55,410 nucleotides of DNA, taken from contig JAOUJW010000032.1 of the NCBI GenBank assembly GCA_029882975.1, positions 1-55,410 on the forward strand. Reading direction: 5' to 3'. Below are positions 6,889 to 54,683 of the stretch, piece after piece; the stretch's first letter is position 1, and each line of letters opens with the position of its first letter. This stretch comes from Gammaproteobacteria bacterium. Its GTDB lineage: Bacteria; Pseudomonadota; Gammaproteobacteria; SZUA-152. The position numbers were made by a program, and so were the translations under genes. Below the pieces are notes generated by a model. That model searched no databases, was not told the DNA's origin, and saw nothing but the letters and a program-made list of their open reading frames with translations.

Positions 6889-7335
6889 TTAGCCTTGGGT
6901 AATGACGGTGGCACGAGCGGAACTGATTACGCGGTCTCCGGCCATGATTTTGAACACATACATAAGATTACCATCGCCGGCCATGAGCTGTTTAGCGGAA
7001 ATCACCAGGGTTTCTTCCACGTCATCAATACGGGGGACTAACAATTCTACGTCACGCAATGCCGCCAAATAACCGGGCTTAATAGATTGGCCATATTGTT
7101 TGGCTAATAGGCCGCCGTGTACTGCCATCGCTTGGGCCCCATACTCCATAGTATGGACGCTGGACAATTGATTGTTTCGTCGTAGAGGATTGTCCTGTGA
7201 TTGGTGTGAACGGCTGATACAAGAGATGCTATCGTCGGTCCAATCCCTAACACCGTCCAACAAACACATGATGCCGGAATGAGGAATCAAATCACACAGC
7301 TCATCCCGTGTTACCTTGATGGCCGGTCCTGTCAT
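6889..7335 (-). CDS. ApeP-like 3-hydroxyacyl-ACP dehydratase
   Basis: 148 residues, hot-dog fold of the COG4706/ApeP type. The N-terminus ELCDLIPHSGIMCLLDGV contains the conserved PHxGxMxLLD motif, whose His is the expected catalytic residue. The mid region MEYGAQAMAVHGGL matches the family helix. Known ApeP proteins act with ApeI as a dehydratase pair that makes trans double bonds in aryl polyenes, and an ApeI-like partner is present at 13393. The start overlaps the stop of the preceding ketosynthase-like gene by 4 bp. Confidence 0.85.
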   Translation of the reverse strand: MTGPAIKVTRDELCDLIPHSGIMCLLDGVRDWTDDSISCISRSHQSQDNPLRRNNQLSSVHTMEYGAQAMAVHGGLLAKQYGQSIKPGYLAALRDVELLVPRIDDVEETLVISAKQLMAGDGNLMYVFKIMAGDRVISSARATVITQG

Positions 7336-8117
7336 GATAAGGTCACCATTAATGAATTTCCTCCTACATAAGGCAGTACAGCGGTTTGTTTTGAGGTGCA
7401 GATGGCTTCCAGCAAGCTTAACGCGTGTCCGCTGGGGTTGCTTTGACGCAGGGGTTCCAGCGCTGCATTGTCCAGCGAGGAAGGAGTCGCGGTCTGATTC
7501 AATTGCAGCGATATGATCGCCTCGTTCTCACCGTCAGTCTCATGGCTGATCAACAAGGCGCATGCCAGAGGCTCGGTTACGGGAACAAAGGGTTGCAATG
7601 ATTCGGGTGCAGGGTAATCGTAGCTGATCATCAAAACGGGTTTGTGCTCTGTCACTGCGATGGTGGTTGCCTCCAGTAAGCCGGATGCAAACGACGCTGT
7701 ACCGGCTGACAAACTGGTGGAAGATTCCCGGCATTCGGTGGCAATGGCCCAATATCCTGCCGGTGCGTTATGTACGGAGTTGTGAAATTGTGTGGGTGAT
7801 ACCGGTTGGTCCGGTAGTGTCAAAGCCGTGCAAATTTTATCAATAATATCGGTATCGCCTTCGGATGAAGCAAACACGGCACACAAAGAGTTTTGTGGAT
7901 AAGGGCAATCATCCAGAATTTGTTCGCCAACTTGTAAAGCCAATTTTATGAGATTCGTGGTACGCCGTCTTTCATTGGGGCGCAGCAGGTTGGGCACAAA
8001 TTTGTCCGGTGGTCTTTTTTCAAAGGTTTGCTCGCCGGTAAGGACTTGACGACACTGCCCCCAGTTGGTGAGGCCTGGAGCGATGATACCGATTTTTTTT
8101 ATAGAAGCTTTCAGCAT
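7332..8117 (-). CDS. Ketosynthase-like chain-length factor (ApeC type)
   Basis: 261 residues from ATG 8117 (MLKASIKKIGIIAPG); the frame extends to 8180 but that part would overlap the upstream gene. It has the N-terminal thiolase-fold half of a beta-ketoacyl synthase (NSVHNAPAGYWAIA, SAGTASFASGLLEA). The expected active-site Cys is absent, replaced in SAGTAS, and the protein is much shorter than the roughly 400 residues of a full ketosynthase. This is the usual form of the chain-length-factor partners in aryl polyene clusters, which pair with the active ketosynthase, here the gene immediately upstream. Confidence 0.82.
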   Translation of the reverse strand: MLKASIKKIGIIAPGLTNWGQCRQVLTGEQTFEKRPPDKFVPNLLRPNERRRTTNLIKLALQVGEQILDDCPYPQNSLCAVFASSEGDTDIIDKICTALTLPDQPVSPTQFHNSVHNAPAGYWAIATECRESSTSLSAGTASFASGLLEATTIAVTEHKPVLMISYDYPAPESLQPFVPVTEPLACALLISHETDGENEAIISLQLNQTATPSSLDNAALEPLRQSNPSGHALSLLEAICTSKQTAVLPYVGGNSLMVTLS

Positions 8118-8140
8118 AGTTTTACCTGTAACCTGGCACT

Positions 8141-9337
8141 TTAGCTGGAAATGCCGGCTTTGCCAAACAGCAAGCTGCAATTGCTGCCGCCAAACCCGAA
8201 AGAGTTACTCATCGTTATGTTTATTTTACCGGCTTTGTTGTCCAGCAGTACTTGTGCGGACAGGGCAGGGTCAATACTGGTGGTGTTTAAGGTGCCGGGC
8301 ATAAAATTATTTTCCATGGCCAGAAAGCAAAACACGGCTTCAGTGATCCCTGCGGCACCCAAGGTGTGGCCTGTCCAGCCTTTGCTGGAGCTACAGGGTG
8401 TAAATGTACCAAAAACCTGAACGACGGCGTGATCTTCCGCGCTGTCGTTGGATTGGGTGGCGGTGCCATGAAGGTTAATGTAGTCCACTTTATCTGCCTG
8501 CAATTCGGCTGTTTCCAATGCGCGCTGCATGGCCAGGGCCGCCCCCTCGCCCTGTGGGTGGGGCGTAGACATATGGTACGCGTCACTGCTTTCTCCGTAG
8601 CCCAGCAGCTCCAGTGCCTGCGCATTATCACCATTGGGTTTTTCCAGCAGGGCATAGCCGGCGGATTCTCCAATATTAATGCCGTTGCGTCCGCCGTCCC
8701 AGGGACGACACTTTTGCTGTGAAACCAGTTCCAAAGAGTTAAAGCCCAATAAGGTGGTTAAGCATAGGCTGTCTACACCACCGACAATGGCGGCGTCACA
8801 CAACCCGGCTTGTATATAACGGCTGGCGCTGGCGAAAACTTTGGCACTGGAAGAACAAGCCGTGGATATAACAACAGCAGGCCCTTGCAGTTGTAAATAT
8901 TGTTGAGTGAACCAGGCAACGGAAAACGTATTGTGGCTTTGTTGGTAATTAAAATCTTTCGGTAGGGCATTGGCTACCAAATCTCGATGCTTGTAAGCTC
9001 GCTCGGTTTGTTGAATACCGGAGGTGCTGGTACCCATAAACACGCCAATACGGTGTGCGCCATAGCGTTGACGCGCTGCCGCTATCGCTTCTGCAAAGCC
9101 ATCCGCCTGCATACCGGCAAGCGCTAGACGGTTATTGCGGCAATCAAATTGGGCTAGAGCGCCGTCCACGGGTTGCTCCAGGGCGACTTGGCCGATCCAG
9201 GTCTCCAAATGGCAGTCGCTGAAGTCGCAGCTGCTTAGGCCACTGCGTTTTTGTTGCAATGCGTCCAGATTGGCCTTCAAGCCGGTACCCAGCGAGTTCA
9301 CTGTGGTGTAGTGGGTGATTTTCAACACTTGATTCAT
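8141..9337 (-). CDS. Beta-ketoacyl-ACP synthase, FabF type (aryl polyene cluster)
   Basis: 398 residues. The active-site triad is visible: Cys in STACSSSAK, His in NLHGTATQSND and His in GHTLGAAG. The C-terminal SFGFGGSN glycine-rich motif is intact. It would catalyse the decarboxylative condensations extending an aryl starter with malonyl-ACP. Its probable dimer partner is the Cys-less chain-length factor encoded directly downstream. The gene is separated from the exporter gene upstream by about 105 bp, the longest gap in this part of the cluster, so an internal promoter is possible. Confidence 0.93.
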   Translation of the reverse strand: MNQVLKITHYTTVNSLGTGLKANLDALQQKRSGLSSCDFSDCHLETWIGQVALEQPVDGALAQFDCRNNRLALAGMQADGFAEAIAAARQRYGAHRIGVFMGTSTSGIQQTERAYKHRDLVANALPKDFNYQQSHNTFSVAWFTQQYLQLQGPAVVISTACSSSAKVFASASRYIQAGLCDAAIVGGVDSLCLTTLLGFNSLELVSQQKCRPWDGGRNGINIGESAGYALLEKPNGDNAQALELLGYGESSDAYHMSTPHPQGEGAALAMQRALETAELQADKVDYINLHGTATQSNDSAEDHAVVQVFGTFTPCSSSKGWTGHTLGAAGITEAVFCFLAMENNFMPGTLNTTSIDPALSAQVLLDNKAGKINITMSNSFGFGGSNCSLLFGKAGISS

Positions 9338-9442
9338 GCCGCTATAGCCGTTGTGTAAATGTCAGCAGATTTTAAACCGTTAAAACCATTCGTCAAATTC
9401 AATTTGCGCAATAGCCCTGTTATCCGCTCGGATTTAAGTTGG

Positions 9443-11845
9443 TTATTTGTTAAACAAGCGACGCGTTTGCGATAGGGACAGCGCAAATACAAAGCTCAGT
9501 AAAACACCTACAGACACGGTATGGCCCATGTCTTTGAGTACGGGAATGTGGGACAGGGATAAAAGGCCAAACACGGTAACCGTGGATATACAGCATACCG
9601 ACAGTGCGTGAAAGGTGCGTAATTTTTCCTGAATGTCGACTTCATTACGATTAAAAAACAAACCATAGTCTATACCAATTCCAAATACCAGCAGTACCGC
9701 CACCAGATTAAACAGGGACAGAGGCATATCGAGAGCAATCAACAGCGCCATGACACAAACAATGGCAGCGCCTACCGGTAACGTGGCGGCGACCAGATAA
9801 TCCCAGGAACGCAATCCCAACCATAGTACCACGATGATGGCCAAAATGGCCCATTGCATTCGTGACAGAGTTTCTTGGCGAAAACTGCTGACCAGGATAT
9901 TGCTGGTTTGTTTTAAGTTGAGATAATAAACCCCATCCAGATCTTGTTGTTGGAACCACTCGGTGAGTTTCTGCGGCTGTCGGGCATCGTACAGTATCAC
10001 CACAGCCGTCCAGTGATCCGAGCGTTGAAACAGCAGGGAGCTGAGTTTTAAACCCAAGGCACTGTTTTGCAGATGTTCCAGCGTTAGGGCGGGTAGTGTT
10101 TTGCTGTCGACAACGGATTGCACAAAGGGCTCAAACTGGCCGTCTCGAAACGGCATGCCTTGAACGGCGGCAGTGAGCTGTTGTCGCAGCATAAGTTCGT
10201 CGGGCAATAATGCCTGACGTTGAGTTTGGGTTTTTACGCTGGGAAGGTAATGGCTGGCCATATCAACAGAGGCTACGATGCCGGCCGTTTTCAATTCCCG
10301 CAATTTTTGGTCTAATTGTTCCGATTTTTGCAGCACCGTCTCAGCGCTGGTATCACTGATTAAGACCATATGGTGTACATCCGGCGCGCCCAGTTCCGCG
10401 CGCAGTTGTTTATCCAATTGCAGTTTATCTTTCGGCAAGGGGCTTAGCGCGGATAGATCATTTTGCCATATCGTTTTATCAGTCAATGTAATATATCCGC
10501 AGGCAGTAATTGCCAAAATGATCATACCCAAGGTGGTTTTAAATCCCGGCTGTAACATCCGAGCGAAAATCCCGTCCGGAGCAAGAACACCATTTGTCTG
10601 TTGTGCGGTTTTCGGTACGTAATAGGCGGGAAGCACCGCCGGGACTACCCAGCGGGTAATGGCCGCTGCAGCTAACAGCCCAATAATGGCAAACCACGAC
10701 AATTGCGCCAAGCCGCTGAAATGGGTAAAGGCCATGGCTAAATAGCCCGTTGCGGTAGTGACCACACCCAAGCGCAAGGTGGGCCAGATGCGTCCAATGT
10801 TGTAAGTAACACTGCGCGGTGGCTTTAAGTGGCTGAACGCATGGATAGGGTAATCAATGGCTACCCCCAGTATGGTCACGCCAAATGCGAGGGTGACTCC
10901 ATGGATCTGCCCAAAGGCAAGGATCACTCCCGCTGTGCCGAAAAGTATGCCGGAGACCAGCGGTAATGCGCTGATTAAAGTTAGGCTCACGGAGCGGTAA
11001 GCCAGTAGTAAAATCAAAATGACGGCGATGCCGGCTGCTGCGCTTAGTAAAGTGATTTCTTTTTCTATTTTTTTGCGTGATTGAGTGGCAAAAACGCTGC
11101 TTCCGCTGAGGGTCAGGGTGTAGTTTTGCGCTGGAGTCCCTTGGTCGAGGGACTGAAAAATTTTCCCAATAGCGGTAATATTGCGCTCCTGCGCATCCAA
11201 ATCAAACCCTGGTGCCTGTGTCTGTAACATCAACAATGCTTTGCGGTTATCGCCGGAAAACCATACGCCATATTGGGTGTTGGTGTTTTGTTGCGGTTGC
11301 AGGCTGTCTACAATAGTGCCCAGTTCATTAGTGGGGTCCTTGGTGAAAGTGCGCTTGTTCATCATGCCCATGGGGGAACTCAATTCCAGCAAGCGCCGCT
11401 CTAACAGGGCGCGCAATGAGGGGGTCTGAAAGCGTTCTTGATTTATCTGGTGGCTGAGCAAATAGCGGTATTGAAACAACAGTCGCTGGTCTTGTTTGTC
11501 CTGTTTCGCCGGCATGCCATTATCCACCCGGTTGAATCGTTCACTCTGTTTCAGTTGTTTGGCAAACTCGCGACTCAGTTGTGCCAATGTTTGGATGGTT
11601 TGTTGAGTGACTGGGGAGTGAGGGTCTTTGGCTTCAATGGCGAGTAGCAGCAGGCGCGAAGCGGCACCTTGGTTTAATTCTTCCAGTAATAGTTTTTCCG
11701 CAGGCGTTTTGGCGTCTGGCATAAACTGCGCCATATCCGTGCTCATATGGGCGCGGGTAAACAATACCCACAGGCTAATGGCAATGGCGATAAGCCAGAG
11801 GGCTATGGGGATGTAGCGGTGCTGACGGGGCTCGGTACCGGTCAC
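9443..11845 (-). CDS. MMPL/RND-family exporter of the aryl polyene cluster
   Basis: 800 residues. The layout is that of an RND/MMPL transporter: one N-terminal membrane helix, a large periplasmic domain, a bundle of five to six helices (from about 270: AGIAVILILLLAYRS...), then the same pattern repeated in the second half (WAILAIIVVLWLGLRSWDYL...). The helix GVTILGVAIDYPIHAF and its counterpart FGIGIDYGLFF carry the conserved Asp-Tyr pairs expected of proton-coupled members. It would move the polyene lipid or a precursor out of the inner membrane. The LolA-like gene 7 bp upstream supports a joint role in transport to the outer membrane. Confidence 0.92.
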   Translation of the reverse strand: MTGTEPRQHRYIPIALWLIAIAISLWVLFTRAHMSTDMAQFMPDAKTPAEKLLLEELNQGAASRLLLLAIEAKDPHSPVTQQTIQTLAQLSREFAKQLKQSERFNRVDNGMPAKQDKQDQRLLFQYRYLLSHQINQERFQTPSLRALLERRLLELSSPMGMMNKRTFTKDPTNELGTIVDSLQPQQNTNTQYGVWFSGDNRKALLMLQTQAPGFDLDAQERNITAIGKIFQSLDQGTPAQNYTLTLSGSSVFATQSRKKIEKEITLLSAAAGIAVILILLLAYRSVSLTLISALPLVSGILFGTAGVILAFGQIHGVTLAFGVTILGVAIDYPIHAFSHLKPPRSVTYNIGRIWPTLRLGVVTTATGYLAMAFTHFSGLAQLSWFAIIGLLAAAAITRWVVPAVLPAYYVPKTAQQTNGVLAPDGIFARMLQPGFKTTLGMIILAITACGYITLTDKTIWQNDLSALSPLPKDKLQLDKQLRAELGAPDVHHMVLISDTSAETVLQKSEQLDQKLRELKTAGIVASVDMASHYLPSVKTQTQRQALLPDELMLRQQLTAAVQGMPFRDGQFEPFVQSVVDSKTLPALTLEHLQNSALGLKLSSLLFQRSDHWTAVVILYDARQPQKLTEWFQQQDLDGVYYLNLKQTSNILVSSFRQETLSRMQWAILAIIVVLWLGLRSWDYLVAATLPVGAAIVCVMALLIALDMPLSLFNLVAVLLVFGIGIDYGLFFNRNEVDIQEKLRTFHALSVCCISTVTVFGLLSLSHIPVLKDMGHTVSVGVLLSFVFALSLSQTRRLFNK

Positions 11846-11852
11846 TGGCGGC

Positions 11853-12488
11853 TCAAAGCGTCATGCCGTGATCACTGACCGTCATGATACTGCGGTCACC
11901 GCCGGCCTCCAGCGTTTCTACGCGATGCAGTTGGGTGCCACTGCCGTGCAAAGTCATGGCATCCACATAAGTCAGCATTTCTTCATCCAATGGATTCAGT
12001 TTCAAGGTCCAGGCCTTGCGGTTGCCGGAAAGGGATGCCTGATAGAAGTTTTTCAGGGTTTTAATATTACCCGATAGCGTTGAGCGCATGGCTTCCACCA
12101 GCGCATGTATCGGGGGGAATTGGTACAGCACCAGACGACGCTCCTTTTGACCTTCGGTTTTCAGGCGCAGGTTGTCTTTTTCCACAATGAAGTAACCCGG
12201 AAGCGGTTTTTCGCTGCGCCGTTCAATATAGTCCGGCGCCTTGTAAACCAGTTTGCCGGAGGATACCAGGGGTTTCGTGGTGATGGAGCGATGTTCGACC
12301 AACTCATAACGGGCACTGGAGGACTTCACTTGGGCCATCGCCTCCATTAAGGTTTCCAGATTCCAAGCCGATGCTTCCGGCTCTGCGCTGGATGGCGTAG
12401 AGCTGTACAGACAAGCCACAAGGACTGTTGTGGCGAATATCCATACCTTATGGTGTTTCGTTGACTTTATTGGTGTTCCAATAATCAT
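11853..12488 (-). CDS. LolA-like outer-membrane lipoprotein carrier homologue
   Basis: About 211 residues from ATG 12488. This start gives a signal peptide (KHHKVWIFATTVLVACLYSSTPSSAEPEA); the frame is open to 12599 but the extra part has no signal. The mature domain matches the LolA fold: an N-terminal helix (WNLETLMEAMAQVKSSSARYELVEHR), then strands including YIERRSEKPLPGYFIVE and a C-terminal sheet. Periplasmic LolA-like proteins are standard members of aryl polyene clusters. With the start at 12488 the gene overlaps the acyltransferase gene by about 41 bp. Confidence 0.85.
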   Translation of the reverse strand: MIIGTPIKSTKHHKVWIFATTVLVACLYSSTPSSAEPEASAWNLETLMEAMAQVKSSSARYELVEHRSITTKPLVSSGKLVYKAPDYIERRSEKPLPGYFIVEKDNLRLKTEGQKERRLVLYQFPPIHALVEAMRSTLSGNIKTLKNFYQASLSGNRKAWTLKLNPLDEEMLTYVDAMTLHGSGTQLHRVETLEAGGDRSIMTVSDHGMTL

Positions 12489-13359
12489 AATAATTAAACC
12501 AATTGTAAGGCGCCATACGGGTATAGTGTTCCAGCCGTTTGGCATACAGCTGAACCCAACGCTGGATATCTTCATCTCGGGTTTTTCGGGAAACGTCAAC
12601 CGATTCAGTCAACAGTTCGAAGTGCACATCGTAGCGGTTACCGCCACGATACAAACCGAATATTAGCACTACCGGGACGTTTAAAATAGAAGCCATCAAC
12701 AAGGGGCCGGTGGGAAATAAAGTGGGTTTCCCCATGAATTGGCATTCCACGGTTTTGTCATCGTTGCTGACTCGGTCACCGAGTATGCCCAACATACCAC
12801 CGGTGTTGAGAAACTCGTGGGCGGCCAAGCCGGCGCTAAATGTGCCCAGCGGGATAACGGTTTTGGCGATGTCCGGGTTCAACGTGTCCAACAACTTAGT
12901 GATGGTGGCGTTTTGCTCCACCCGCATGAAAACTTTTAAGGGGATATTTTTCTCTTTCAAAGCAACAGCACGCAACACCTCGAAACTTCCCAGGTGCGAA
13001 CCTAATAAGATACAACCCTTACCCTCGGCCAAGGTGTTGAGCAGCAGATCAAGATTTTCGATCTTGGTCTTAAACAAATCAAAGCGCCCGCACAGGAAAT
13101 ACACTCGATCCAAAATAGTGGAGGCAAAACAGTGAAAATGCCTGGCGACTGTCAATAAGCTGGGTGGATGCTGCAAAACTAAAGTGAAAAACTGGAATGA
13201 TGCCCGGCGCGCTTTGCTAACCGCCAGCAGAAAGTACAGGGTAATGGGATACAAAAAAACCCGAGTCGGAGTCCGGCCGATGTGCAGCGCTACCCACAGG
13301 ATCAACTTTACCAATAAGGGAGACCCTCGTTCGGGGGATTTTTTCCATTCGCTGCCCAT
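12448..13359 (-). CDS. Lipid A-type (LpxL/HtrB-like) acyltransferase
   Basis: 303 residues. The acyltransferase motif H-x4-E is visible in LLGSHLGSFEVL near 120, and a GDRVSNDDKTVECQFMGKP segment near 195 matches the second conserved block (GDR...F.G...P) of the LABLAT family. An N-terminal hydrophobic segment probably anchors it to the inner membrane. In aryl polyene clusters such enzymes are thought to acylate the lipid anchor. In some clusters this activity is fused to a GT2 domain; here it stands alone. Confidence 0.9.
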   Translation of the reverse strand: MGSEWKKSPERGSPLLVKLILWVALHIGRTPTRVFLYPITLYFLLAVSKARRASFQFFTLVLQHPPSLLTVARHFHCFASTILDRVYFLCGRFDLFKTKIENLDLLLNTLAEGKGCILLGSHLGSFEVLRAVALKEKNIPLKVFMRVEQNATITKLLDTLNPDIAKTVIPLGTFSAGLAAHEFLNTGGMLGILGDRVSNDDKTVECQFMGKPTLFPTGPLLMASILNVPVVLIFGLYRGGNRYDVHFELLTESVDVSRKTRDEDIQRWVQLYAKRLEHYTRMAPYNWFNYYDYWNTNKVNETP

Positions 13360-50171: not shown

Positions 50172-51248
<1,077 letters not shown>

Positions 51249-51304
51249 TCAATTCAATACTGGGATTTTATAGGAGCGCAGGAGTGTAAAAAAGTGCTGA
51301 AAGT

Positions 51305-51330
51305 AAAAAAGGGCGCACATTTGTGCGCCC
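51305..51330 (-). terminator. Rho-independent terminator after the adenylate kinase gene
   Basis: Perfect 8-bp stem GGGCGCAC (51311-51318) / GTGCGCCC (51323-51330) with ATTT loop. A run of As at 51305-51310 reads as Ts on the - strand, so it ends the transcript of the gene at 51433. Confidence 0.88.
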
Positions 51331-51432
51331 TTAGCTTCTGAACTACCGGTTTTTCGGTTTCCTGGCCCCTTTTGGCTCCTTTGCAGGGTGACAGAAGGGG
51401 TAAGGGACCGTCGATCCGGCTAATTTTGCTGC

Positions 51433-51708
51433 TTATGGTGTAACTGCAGCCTTTTTCTTGGCTGCTCTCTTTTTGGTAGCCTTTTTCTTGGCGACTTTCT
51501 TTTTGGCAACCTTTTTCTTGGCTACCTTCTTTTTGGCAACCTTTTTCTTGGCTACCTTCTTTTTGGCAACCTTTTTCTTGGCTACCTTCTTTTTGGCAAC
51601 CTTTTTCTTGGCTACCTTCTTCTTAGCTACTTTCTTCTTAGCTACTTTCTTCTTAGGTGCGGCTTTCTTTTTAACCGCTGCTTTTGCTCTCTTGGGTTTT
51701 GCTGCCAT
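51433..51708 (-). CDS. Possible separate histone H1-like protein from an internal start
   Basis: ATG 51708 (residue 280 of the adenylate kinase fusion, same frame) is preceded by AAGGAGG (complement of 51717-51723) with an 8-nt spacing, an ideal ribosome binding site and better than most in the window. It would give a 91-residue protein beginning MAAKPKRAKAAVKKKAAP and consisting almost wholly of Lys, Ala and Val. Such proteins condense DNA in other bacteria. This is an alternative product inside the larger frame, not an independent gene. Confidence 0.6.
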   Translation of the reverse strand: MAAKPKRAKAAVKKKAAPKKKVAKKKVAKKKVAKKKVAKKKVAKKKVAKKKVAKKKVAKKKVAKKKVAKKKVAKKKATKKRAAKKKAAVTP

Positions 51709-52545
51709 GATTGTGGCCTCCTTATTGGCAATAGAACCAGATTGATTATGTGTTTCTTTTGCCTTCTTTTCGGAAGTTACTACACTTTCTTTAGTTTTTT
51801 CTTTGGTTTTTTCTGTTTTTATATCATTTTCCTGCATTATTTCATTCAATGCAGACTTAATTGCCGTTGTTGCCTTCTTTTTTTGCGCCTCCTTTACTTC
51901 AATTGATGTGATGACGTTACACAAGCTGTCATAAATCTCATCAATTTCACCCTTTCCTTGCACACTATAGAGCTTGCCTTGTTCCCCATAGTGAGCAATC
52001 AATGGCGAGGTCTGGGTTTCGTACACGCGCAGACGATTGGATATGGTTTCCTCGTTATCGTCTCCGCGATGATGTAAGTTACCACCACACTTGTCGCAAT
52101 GATCTTCCAGTTTGGATGGTGATGTATAAATATTGTAAACCTGATTGCATGTAGAGCAGGTTCGACGTCCCGTTATTCTTTGTATCAGTAAATCGTAGTC
52201 CACGTCTATAAGAATAACACCCTGCAATGGTTTACCAATGGAGTTTAACATTTCATCCAATGCATATGCCTGGGTTAGGTTGCGTGGAAAACCGTCGAGG
52301 ACAAACCCTCTATGAGTATCCGCCTGATCCAATCGCTCCTTAATCATATCCAAAACAATTTGGTCAGAGACCAATTGGCCGGCATCCATTGCAGCCTTGG
52401 CTAATTTTCCCAAGTGGGTTTCCGCTTTAACAGCAGCGCGTAACAGATCGCCCGTGGATATTTGAGGGATCCTGTATTTATCAACCAGCATTTGCGCCTG
52501 CGTGCCTTTGCCCGATCCTGGCGCACCAACCAGTACAATTCGCAT
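51433..52545 (-). CDS. adk: Adenylate kinase with a histone H1-like Lys/Ala repeat tail
   Basis: 370 residues. Residues 1-215 are a complete adenylate kinase: GAPGSGKGT at 7-15, GDLLRAAV, DGFPRN near 84 and a zinc-type LID with C130, C133, C150 and C153. Residues about 216-279 are a charged linker (KEAQKKKATTAIK... EKTKEKTKES). Residues 280-370 are a basic tail of KKVA/KKKVAK repeats like bacterial H1-like histones (AlgP, HctB). M280 (ATG 51708) has its own ribosome binding site. The frame is unbroken, so the full fusion should be made. A sequencing error joining two genes is unlikely because the linker is continuous and intact. Confidence 0.93.
   Translation of the reverse strand: MRIVLVGAPGSGKGTQAQMLVDKYRIPQISTGDLLRAAVKAETHLGKLAKAAMDAGQLVSDQIVLDMIKERLDQADTHRGFVLDGFPRNLTQAYALDEMLNSIGKPLQGVILIDVDYDLLIQRITGRRTCSTCNQVYNIYTSPSKLEDHCDKCGGNLHHRGDDNEETISNRLRVYETQTSPLIAHYGEQGKLYSVQGKGEIDEIYDSLCNVITSIEVKEAQKKKATTAIKSALNEIMQENDIKTEKTKEKTKESVVTSEKKAKETHNQSGSIANKEATIMAAKPKRAKAAVKKKAAPKKKVAKKKVAKKKVAKKKVAKKKVAKKKVAKKKVAKKKVAKKKVAKKKVAKKKVAKKKATKKRAAKKKAAVTP
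51478..51655. repeat. 30-bp tandem repeat coding the lysine-rich tail
   Basis: Roughly 30-bp units (coding KKKVAKKKVA) follow one another. The 30-bp unit from about 51508 is repeated nearly or fully identically at least three times, and flanking units have diverged (CTTCTTAGCTACTTT forms near 51620-51655). It should be prone to copy-number change by strand slippage, always in steps of ten residues. Confidence 0.85.
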
Positions 52546-53220
52546 TGAGGCTACCTCTTTTCCTTGACCGCTGTTCTCGTTTATCAGTAAGTGTTAACTG
52601 CTTTGCCAAACTTCGTCAGAAATCCTGATACCAGCGTCGTGTTCTTCAGTCTTCGAATCTTCGATCTTCCAACGGTAGAACCTGCCGTGATACGTTTGGA
52701 TGTCCTTCCCATCTAACCTTTCTATGTTGGATGGTTGCGCTGCTTAATAATGCATACTGCGATACGGCTGAATCTGTCCTTGCTTACGGGTAATTCCTTG
52801 TTGCTTTGCAATGCATCTTACAAACCAATTTTGTAACTTTTTAAACTATTTTTCTAAAAATAGTTGGAAGTTAATAAAAAGTCAGTAGTAAATCAACAAA
52901 TATTTTAGTAAATAATAAAAAAATATAACACATGAGAGAAGAAAAAACGGTATTATTGCGCTTTGGAGTACTACAACTCCCGGATTTTTACAGTTTAGCA
53001 GGAGCTACCAGTTAATTTTTTGGTGTTTGATGCCTCAAACAAAACAAAAATTGATTTTCGGTCTATCTAAAACAAAATAATTTGACTAGAACCTAACTCA
53101 AAATTGAGTCTTTTCGTTTAGATGAGGCCGGCGTCTTTCGAAAATCGGAGTTCGCACGCGACAACAGGTATTTGAGAAAGGCAATAGCGAAGTATAAATG
53201 GAAAAGATTGATTTTGATCT
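52546..53220. other. AT-rich non-coding region upstream of the adenylate kinase gene
   Basis: No convincing gene. Contains a perfect 10-bp inverted repeat AACTATTTTT (52844-52853) / AAAAATAGTT (52856-52865), a smaller one TTACAA/TTGTAA at about 52819-52836, and GGAGT/ACTCC at about 52964-52980. Very AT-rich from 52800 to 53090. It must include the promoter of the adenylate kinase gene. Short open frames here have no ribosome binding site or recognisable product. Confidence 0.5.
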
Positions 53221-53379
53221 GGGAACCTCTAATTAACTCCTGGATGAGCAGATATGAGAATAGAATTTTCCGGTTGGGGAAAGCACAGGGGATATCGACT
53301 ATTTCCAAGTTTTCAGCAAAGCTTGGTGATTCTATTTTTTTATTGATTTTGTTCACGGAATTAGTCAGAGGTTCTCTGG
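53221..53379. mobile_element. Possible MITE-like element
   Basis: About 159 bp bounded by imperfect terminal inverted repeats. The left copy is GAACCTCTAATTAACTCC at 53223-53240. The right copy, at 53357-53374, reads GAACCTCTGACTAATTCC on the - strand. They match at 15 of 18 positions. There is no transposase inside. A solo copy of the same end motif lies at 45667. No clear target-site duplication was found. It ends about 40 bp before the phosphofructokinase start. Confidence 0.4.
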
Positions 53380-53417
53380 GTTCTGGAAATAAAATATAAG
53401 AGTGTGGAGGAGTTATC

Positions 53418-54683
53418 ATGGCGAAGAAAAATGCTTTTTATGCTCAATCGGGAGGCGTGACAGCCGTAATTAATGCCAGCGCATGCGGTGTCATAGAAAC
53501 TGCGCGAAAACATAAAGACAAAATCGGTAAAGTGTACGCCGGTCGCAACGGAATCATTGGTGCTTTAACGGAAGATTTGATCGATACCAGCAAGGAGTCG
53601 GCTAAAGCAATAGCGGCCTTACGTCATACTCCGTCCGGTGCATTTGGGTCGTGCCGGTATAAGTTAAAAGGACTGGACGAAAACAAAGCCGAGTATGAGC
53701 GTCTCATAGAAGTTTTTGAGGCACACAATATCGGTTATTTTTTCTATAACGGAGGCGGAGATTCTCAGGACACTGCCAATAAGGTCTCGCAACTGGGCGA
53801 GCAAATGGGGTATCCCATTACCTGCATCGGCATACCCAAAACCGTAGACAATGACCTGCCGATCACAGACAACTGTCCCGGTTTTGGTTCAGTCGCCAAA
53901 TACGTGGCTGTGTCCATTCGCGAGGCCGCGTTTGATGTGGCATCCATGGCCAAAACGTCTACCAAGATTTTTGTGATGGAAGTCATGGGGCGTCACGCCG
54001 GTTGGATTGCAGCAGCAGGAGGCTTGGCTACTGAAAAAGAAGGCGATGCGCCTCATATCATTTTATTTCCCGAAGTCGAGTTCGATGAGGCTAAATTTCT
54101 TAAAAAAGTGGATTCCTGTGTTAAAAAATACGGTTATTGCACCATCGTAGTTTCCGAAGGTGTGCGCAATAAAGAAGGAGTGTTCCTGGCAGAAACCGGT
54201 GTTCGTGATGCCTTTGGTCATGCTCAACTGGGTGGGGTAGCCCCTGTGATAGCGGAACTGATCAAATCCAATCTTGGGTATAAGTATCATTGGGCGGTTG
54301 CTGACTATCTGCAGCGTGCTGCGCGTCACATTGCATCGAAAACCGACGTGGATCAAGCCTACGCCATGGGTAAGGCAGCGGTTGAGTTTGCATTGAAGGG
54401 TAAAACGGCGGTCATGCCGACTATCGTACGTAAATCCAATAAGCCGTATAAATGGTCGGTGGGTGAAGCCAAATTGTCCGATGTGGCCAATGTTGAGAAA
54501 ATGATGCCGAAGAACTTTATATCGCGTGACGGGTTTCACATTACCGAGCAATGTCGTGAGTATTTGTCGCCCCTAATCAAAGGGGAAGATTATCCACCCT
54601 ATAAAAACGGCTTGCCTCAGTATGTAACTTTGAAAAATGTGGCGGTACCCAAGAAGATCAAGAAGAGCTTCACCATTAAATAA
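53418..54683 (+). CDS. Pyrophosphate-dependent 6-phosphofructokinase
   Basis: 421 residues. It has the phosphofructokinase signature GGGDSQDTA near 112, PKTVDNDLP near 140 and MGRHAGW near 192. In E. coli ATP-enzyme numbering, Gly104 is replaced by Asp and Gly124 by Lys; these two changes mark the PPi-using type. It reversibly makes fructose 1,6-bisphosphate using PPi. A ribosome binding site GGAGG precedes the ATG. The proton-pumping pyrophosphatase gene faces it across a shared terminator, as is seen in other PPi-based bacteria. Confidence 0.94.
   Translation: MAKKNAFYAQSGGVTAVINASACGVIETARKHKDKIGKVYAGRNGIIGALTEDLIDTSKESAKAIAALRHTPSGAFGSCRYKLKGLDENKAEYERLIEVFEAHNIGYFFYNGGGDSQDTANKVSQLGEQMGYPITCIGIPKTVDNDLPITDNCPGFGSVAKYVAVSIREAAFDVASMAKTSTKIFVMEVMGRHAGWIAAAGGLATEKEGDAPHIILFPEVEFDEAKFLKKVDSCVKKYGYCTIVVSEGVRNKEGVFLAETGVRDAFGHAQLGGVAPVIAELIKSNLGYKYHWAVADYLQRAARHIASKTDVDQAYAMGKAAVEFALKGKTAVMPTIVRKSNKPYKWSVGEAKLSDVANVEKMMPKNFISRDGFHITEQCREYLSPLIKGEDYPPYKNGLPQYVTLKNVAVPKKIKKSFTIK

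Follow-up and report, generated by a model that had tools for sequence, protein, structure and literature searches.

An adenylate kinase gene that reads in frame into a histone H1-like tail, with a conserved candidate internal start at the tail boundary

Does a single gammaproteobacterial gene encode an adenylate kinase (Adk) extended by a histone H1-like tail, and what could be made from it? We addressed this question in a stretch of 55,410 nt (hereafter the window), for which a sequence-only reading had proposed an in-frame fusion of both parts. The proposal proved right: the gene is a single 370-aa frame without internal stops, and the same architecture occurs in 19 of the 24 genomes of the window's family (Table 1). 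Neither a stop nor a frameshift separates residues 215 and 280, and the 19 family genomes agree on the open frame and on the fused gene, which rules out an assembly error or frameshift artefact. In the window, adk is flanked by PPi-dependent phosphofructokinase and hemB, and frames sharing the start sequence of each were found in 10 of the 12 other loci read. The hairpin 3' of the fused gene is one of 8 terminator-like sites in the window, against 2.2 in shuffled sequence.

Table 1. Features of the fused gene and its surroundings, in window coordinates
Feature	Coordinates	Strand	Basis or remarks
Whole open frame: adenylate kinase, linker and H1-like tail, 370 aa	51433..52545	-	ATG start, no internal stop
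Adenylate kinase domain, residues 1-215, with P-loop and Cys4 lid	51901..52545	-	Profile, structure match, AlphaFold model
Charged linker, residues 216-279	51709..51900	-	Codon analysis, AlphaFold model
H1-like tail, residues 280-370; predicted separate product MAAKPKRAKAAVKKK..., 91 aa	51433..51708	-	
Tandem repeats of 15/30 bp encoding KKKVA pentamers	51446..51654	-	
Intrinsic-terminator-like hairpin 3' of the fused gene	51309..51332	-	
Shine-Dalgarno-like AGAGGT at the primary adk start	52553..52558	-	-7.1 kcal/mol
Internal Shine-Dalgarno-like site TAAGGAGG, spaced 8 nt from the internal ATG	51717..51724	-	
Conserved internal in-frame ATG (Met280)	51706..51708	-	ATG in 19/19 family members
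Divergent neighbor: diphosphate--fructose-6-phosphate 1-phosphotransferase (PRK14072)	53418..54683	+	
Downstream neighbor: porphobilinogen synthase (hemB)	50172..51191	-	

The N-terminal part had been described as a complete, zinc-type adenylate kinase, and profile searches uphold its completeness over residues 1-215. The NCBIfam adenylate kinase model NF001380 matches residues 1-214 with 289.6 bits (cut-off 251), Pfam PF00406 (ADK) scores 187.9 bits vs a cut-off of 26.8 with an accompanying match of ADK_lid, and among solved chains the nearest is that of an adenylate kinase (5g3y_A, E 2.6e-68). An alignment of 24 rows, window protein included, revealed invariance of the four lid cysteines (C130, C133, C150, and C153), of the P-loop stretch G7-T15 except S11, and of R36, R88, R123, R160, and R171; these arginines are the catalytic ones. 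The AlphaFold model, built from a 24-row alignment, further assigns pLDDT values >90 to most of the domain. Collectively, these data identify an intact adenylate kinase of the long, Cys4-lid type, with zinc binding and catalysis predicted. Besides the tailed enzyme, the window genome encodes a plain Adk, and 23 of the 24 family genomes gave a match to an Adk without a tail. Outside the family, the tailed frame is the sole PF00406 match in three genomes rated 98-100% complete (G037, G044, and G045), in which the tailed Adk can serve as the housekeeping enzyme; a fourth genome (G042) has two PF00406 matches.

The charged linker (residues 216-279) and the Lys-rich tail of about 90 residues (280-370) likewise conform to the initial description. 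With 52% K, 25% A and no D/E, the tail has a net charge of +49, a pI of 12.0 and a mass of 9.9 kDa, and contains 11 KKKVA pentamers. In the AlphaFold model the last Adk helix (201-250) extends into the linker, and pLDDT is <50 nearly throughout residues 254-370, which are predicted to be disordered, in keeping with a tail of this kind. The linker frame is kept open, since the 1122 linker codons of the 19 family genes contain no in-frame stop, vs 57 and 92 stops when the two remaining forward frames are read. Its length ranges from 44 to 78 codons across the family, and its sequence changes rapidly, with just a slight excess of changes at third positions; 12 close pairs revealed no strong purifying selection, and little sign of any, on the linker peptide beyond the open frame. 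When the window tail alone was scored, Pfam HC2 (PF07382; E 3.9e-5, 24.3 bits) and NF038053 (E 0.003, 17.8 bits) both fell below their curated cut-offs of 40 and 80, and these matches rest on composition. Thus, 'H1-like' describes the composition of the tail, that is, a resemblance and not a membership.

Hc2 (HctB) of Chlamydia and the Burkholderia-type H1-like proteins are encoded by separate genes. In the available part of the published account, they resemble the window tail in having a variable number of lysine-rich pentamers (PMC2848022), and Hc2 is longer (165-237 aa vs 91 aa). Similarly, AlgP and PhaF of Pseudomonas are described, in the text available, as proteins in which a disordered, H1-like tail rich in Lys/Ala comes after an N-terminal domain, and these tails are reported or thought to bind DNA (PMC9239181; PMC3574117). 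They differ from the window protein in that their N-terminal part is not a metabolic enzyme and their repeats are KPAA instead of KKKVA; moreover, the available text of both papers does not mention an internal start, for which the window gene has a conserved candidate. KPAA peptides bind DNA, and AlgP itself sits on polyphosphate granules, according to the same partial source (PMC9239181). From the compositional likeness to the Hc2 and AlgP tails and the DNA binding of KPAA peptides, we infer that the tail is a probable nucleic-acid binder, electrostatic tethering of Adk to DNA or RNA being its natural reading. The G037, G044, and G045 cells would then appear to run their adenylate balance on an Adk expected to sit on nucleic acid.

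We examined how widely Adks carry Lys-rich tails, a survey that the sequence-only reading had itself advised. The search covered 57 genomes, of which 24 belong to the window's family (the window genome among them) and 33 to other families in the class; the fused frame was found in 19 of the former and in four of the latter (G037, G042, G044, and G045). In one of the 19 (L007) the contig ends before the tail does. No full fused gene was recovered from five family genomes, which yielded a plain Adk only (G005, G011, G019, and G021) or a plain Adk plus a fragment (G022) and are probably incomplete assemblies. A wider sample consisted of the best 80 loci in named genome contigs, 76 of which were kept for a tree together with 23 fused frames. 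Left out were L033 and L040, whose contig and frame lengths equal those of L005 and L020 and which were treated as duplicates of these; L091, a plain frame of 214 aa that starts at a contig edge; and L054 (3001-3636), a related locus whose Adk part is interrupted in the lid region by an in-frame stop at codon 142. With a Lys-rich tail defined as 60 aa or more with a lysine content of 15% or higher, 43 of these 76 related loci carry one (29 at ≥30% Lys and 14 at 15-30%), 32 have no tail, and one has a long lysine-poor tail. The tree, built by a quick method that leaves many weak forks, requires seven label changes and places the 19 tailed family members in one starred clade, which indicates that Adk tails were gained or lost several times, yet are strongly clustered. 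Three loci (L055, L062, and L072) display a lysine-poorer tail subtype ending near a common W-E-K-D motif, and two of them (L062 and L072) have in common an internal MND[ED]KSN after a moderate Shine-Dalgarno-like site. Long open frames of the wider samples were rejected as additional tailed Adks: 19 of the 20 regions (4 from the 57-genome search and 16 from a phylum sample of 150 genomes) are plain Adks of ~190-219 aa, and L131 was unreadable.

Tailed Adks also occur in that phylum sample, where the model PRK13808 (NCBIfam NF010381), which like the window protein has a C-terminal K/A-rich tail in the same chain as Adk, gave at least two matches over its cut-off. These are L119 (285 aa) and L120 (284 aa), both K/A-tailed with tails such as KKAAKKAVKGAKK; the other 10 of 12 loci inspected in this sample are plain Adks. 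Both matches come from another class of the phylum, presumably Alphaproteobacteria, and have a short lid that, in the stretch read, lacks the Cys4 motif. Scored with PRK13808, the window protein reaches 185.7 bits, below the cut-off of 426, and is a non-member; the two kinds of tail were probably acquired independently. The view that no Adk of this kind had been described is hence only partly tenable. Open-access literature, which omits most subscription journals, yielded no description of a tailed, histone-like or DNA-binding adenylate kinase, but the PRK13808 model and the 43 of 76 related loci reveal that such proteins are not confined to this locus.

While right about the fusion, the earlier account missed a conserved candidate internal start at the tail boundary. 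The first tail codon is an in-frame ATG in each of the 19 family members, preceded at constant spacing by AAGGAG (17) or AAGGAA (2) and followed by an Ala or Thr codon, and this Shine-Dalgarno/ATG block is kept although the length of the linker before it varies. Predicted 16S pairing of the window site amounts to -12.2 kcal/mol vs -7.1 at the adk start, and exceeds that of the best starts of 40 long window frames (mean -5.2 kcal/mol, one reaching -11.1). Across the family, 17 of 19 members have an anti-Shine-Dalgarno pairing of -8.5 kcal/mol or stronger, and 12 have one of -11.4 or stronger, against a background of 449 in-frame ATGs inside Adk domains with a mean of -1.9 and a strongest value of -9.5 kcal/mol. 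Apart from the internal site, no in-frame AAGGAG/AGGAGG-ATG occurs in the 13,138 codons that make up stop-free stretches of at least 250 codons. The Shine-Dalgarno bases of the internal site are predicted to be unpaired with P 0.46-0.75, whereas controls within the Adk part have means of 0.36-0.44. Other Met residues are scarce, just two in the 2051 tail residues of the 19 members. A product started at this ATG would span 48-147 aa in the family, where the L007 tail is cut by the contig end, and 91 aa in the window. A conserved predicted ribosome-binding site with an in-frame start codon is therefore present in 19 of 19 members, in two of them as a weak site.

Conservation of this block extends to synonymous positions. 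The Lys275 codon is AAG in all 19 genes, the sole invariant codon among 40 two-fold columns with a conserved amino acid, and that of Glu276 is GAG in 17. On the nucleotide tree of the Adk part, Lys275 accumulated no third-position changes, whereas each of 35 comparable Adk columns accumulated one to five; the single change at Glu276 is equalled by 2 of these 35. Elsewhere in the linkers, AAG encodes 29% of 136 Lys and GAG 12% of 141 Glu, and other Lys-Glu pairs in the family genes read AAAGAA in 21 of 26 cases and AAGGAG in 4. The contrast weakens when controls are drawn more widely, from Adk parts (AAG for 41% of 195 Lys, GAG for 33% of 147 Glu), tails (AAG for 57% of 1073 Lys) or long frames of the window (AAGGAG for 6 of 28 Lys-Glu pairs). 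Given this constraint on the synonymous codons of Lys275 and Glu276, amino-acid conservation alone is insufficient as an explanation, and the constraint could in principle serve a purpose other than initiation.

We consider it reasonably probable, on these sequence grounds, that the locus is one gene with two products, a nucleic-acid-tethered Adk and a free H1-like protein of ~10 kDa. The intact Adk sequence, the fused and conserved frame, the internal ATG and the Shine-Dalgarno codons are read directly from the DNA, and internal initiation, binding and physiological coupling are the predicted parts of this scheme. Ribosomes starting at the adk ATG would read on into the tail, and the full-length fusion is forced by a frame that contains no stop. 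The resulting chain would comprise a folded Adk, an extended helix and ~115 disordered, very basic residues that may bind nucleic acid irrespective of its sequence, be it DNA or RNA and ribosomes, and the tailed Adk would thereby be held on the nucleoid or on polysomes instead of diffusing freely. In the window's family, ribosomes would also start at the strong internal Shine-Dalgarno/ATG site, releasing from the same mRNA a free histone H1-like (Hc2/AlgP-like) polycation of ~10 kDa. Since the conserved internal start leads us to expect both fused and separate products in this family, detection of a separate tail product alone would not refute the fusion. To a stronger version of this proposal we give about even chances: a histone-like gene is nested in adk, and a free chromatin polycation and a chromatin-tethered Adk arise from one mRNA with their supplies locked together, an arrangement found in all 19 readable family members. 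If the internal start is used, a single gene would deliver an enzyme and a histone-like protein, which would couple energy metabolism to chromosome packing in a simple, hard-wired way. An automatic annotation is likely to name the whole gene 'adenylate kinase' and miss the second predicted protein.

The strongest competing explanation, to which we assign a clearly smaller yet appreciable likelihood, is that the tail is solely a polycationic appendage of Adk and that the internal Shine-Dalgarno/ATG block is unused, being conserved for the peptide or, for example, for slowing ribosomes before poly-lysine. Tails do persist without an internal start, as all but two of the 47 tailed Adks outside the family lack an ATG in the tail at -8.5 kcal/mol or stronger, which suggests that the appendage alone is a stable design. 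The two exceptions, L034 (3001-3849; -11.3 kcal/mol) and L101 (3001-4089; -8.8), are perhaps independent internal starts, or chance; L038 (-6.5) and L065 (-7.8) have an intermediate ATG site at the tail start, and GTG codons at -8.0 to -10.6 kcal/mol in six of the 47 are perhaps due to chance in purine-rich DNA. Within the family, two members have a weakened site, L008 and L011, where AAGGAA alone pairs at -5.6 kcal/mol, at about the 5% quantile of the background, and the internal ATG is predicted to be paired in five members of one genus (L013-L016 and L018; P unpaired 0.04-0.09). A search for a promoter before the internal start revealed no sigma-70-like site in 51200-53450, a result that says little (shuffles average 4.1). 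However, an unused block accounts poorly for a constraint that acts on synonymous codons and not solely on amino acids, for ATG spacing fixed in 19 of 19 members, and for an ATG followed by Ala/Thr, which resembles a real start.

An origin by recent accident, in which an independent downstream H1-like gene was joined to adk by loss of a stop and left the internal start as a relic, would place this start at the beginning of the H1-like part, exactly where it stands. Yet no such donor was evident: in 74 of the 80 related loci, those with a closing adk frame, no Lys-rich same-strand frame of at least 40 aa lies within 900 nt after adk (70 of these 74 contain the full 900 nt). Furthermore, other families have fused tails without the internal site, the tailed family members form one clade, and in a relic the synonymous codons would not be expected to survive, which makes this scenario very improbable. 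Adk acts with polyphosphate kinase in polyphosphate:AMP phosphotransfer. We give marginally less credit still to a tail that, by analogy with AlgP, would tether Adk to polyphosphate granules and help turn polyphosphate and AMP into ADP and ATP; PPK1 occurs in 8 of 12 genomes examined, the window's included, and AlgP, with its H1-like KPAA-rich C-terminus, localizes to such granules in Pseudomonas aeruginosa, but the main text of that paper, as far as available, does not name adenylate kinase (PMC9239181), PPK1 was not found in the other four genomes (G006, G008, G010, and G045), and three of these (G006, G010, and G045) lack PPK2 (PF03976) as well and nonetheless keep the tail, so that a polyphosphate role is possible in single species and weakened as a general function.

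Returning to one gene with two products, several of its elements are already known separately, namely K/A tails on other proteins (AlgP and PhaF), K/A-tailed Adks in PRK13808, and in-frame internal translation elsewhere. As for the latter, archaeal Cas11b, like the proposed tail product, is a shorter second protein made by in-frame internal translation, according to the accessible portion of its description (PMC11899642); unlike Cas11b, the product nested in the window gene is a predicted histone-like polycation inside the gene of a housekeeping enzyme. The novelty therefore appears to lie in the combination, a conserved internal start for a predicted histone-like protein within an adenylate kinase gene.

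Matches of the tail elsewhere in the window's genome were also inspected; at three of them (L114, L117, and L118), none of the frames read encodes a Lys-rich protein. On contig C4, L116 (757-1665) encodes a ribosomal protein S2 of 302 aa with a K/A-rich C-terminal tail AAPKKKATVKKKATVKKK... On contig C2, L115 (994-1776) encodes a 260-aa K/A-tailed protein of AlgP/PhaF-like layout whose C-terminal half is H1-like (NF038053, E 3.5e-7, below cut-off). Polycationic tails attached to unrelated proteins in this genome suggest a recurring add-on. Separately, the minus strand of the window carries at 7332-13359 a cluster of two ketosynthase-type proteins, an MMPL-family protein and a lipid-A-type acyltransferase, which we take to resemble an aryl-polyene-like fatty acid locus.
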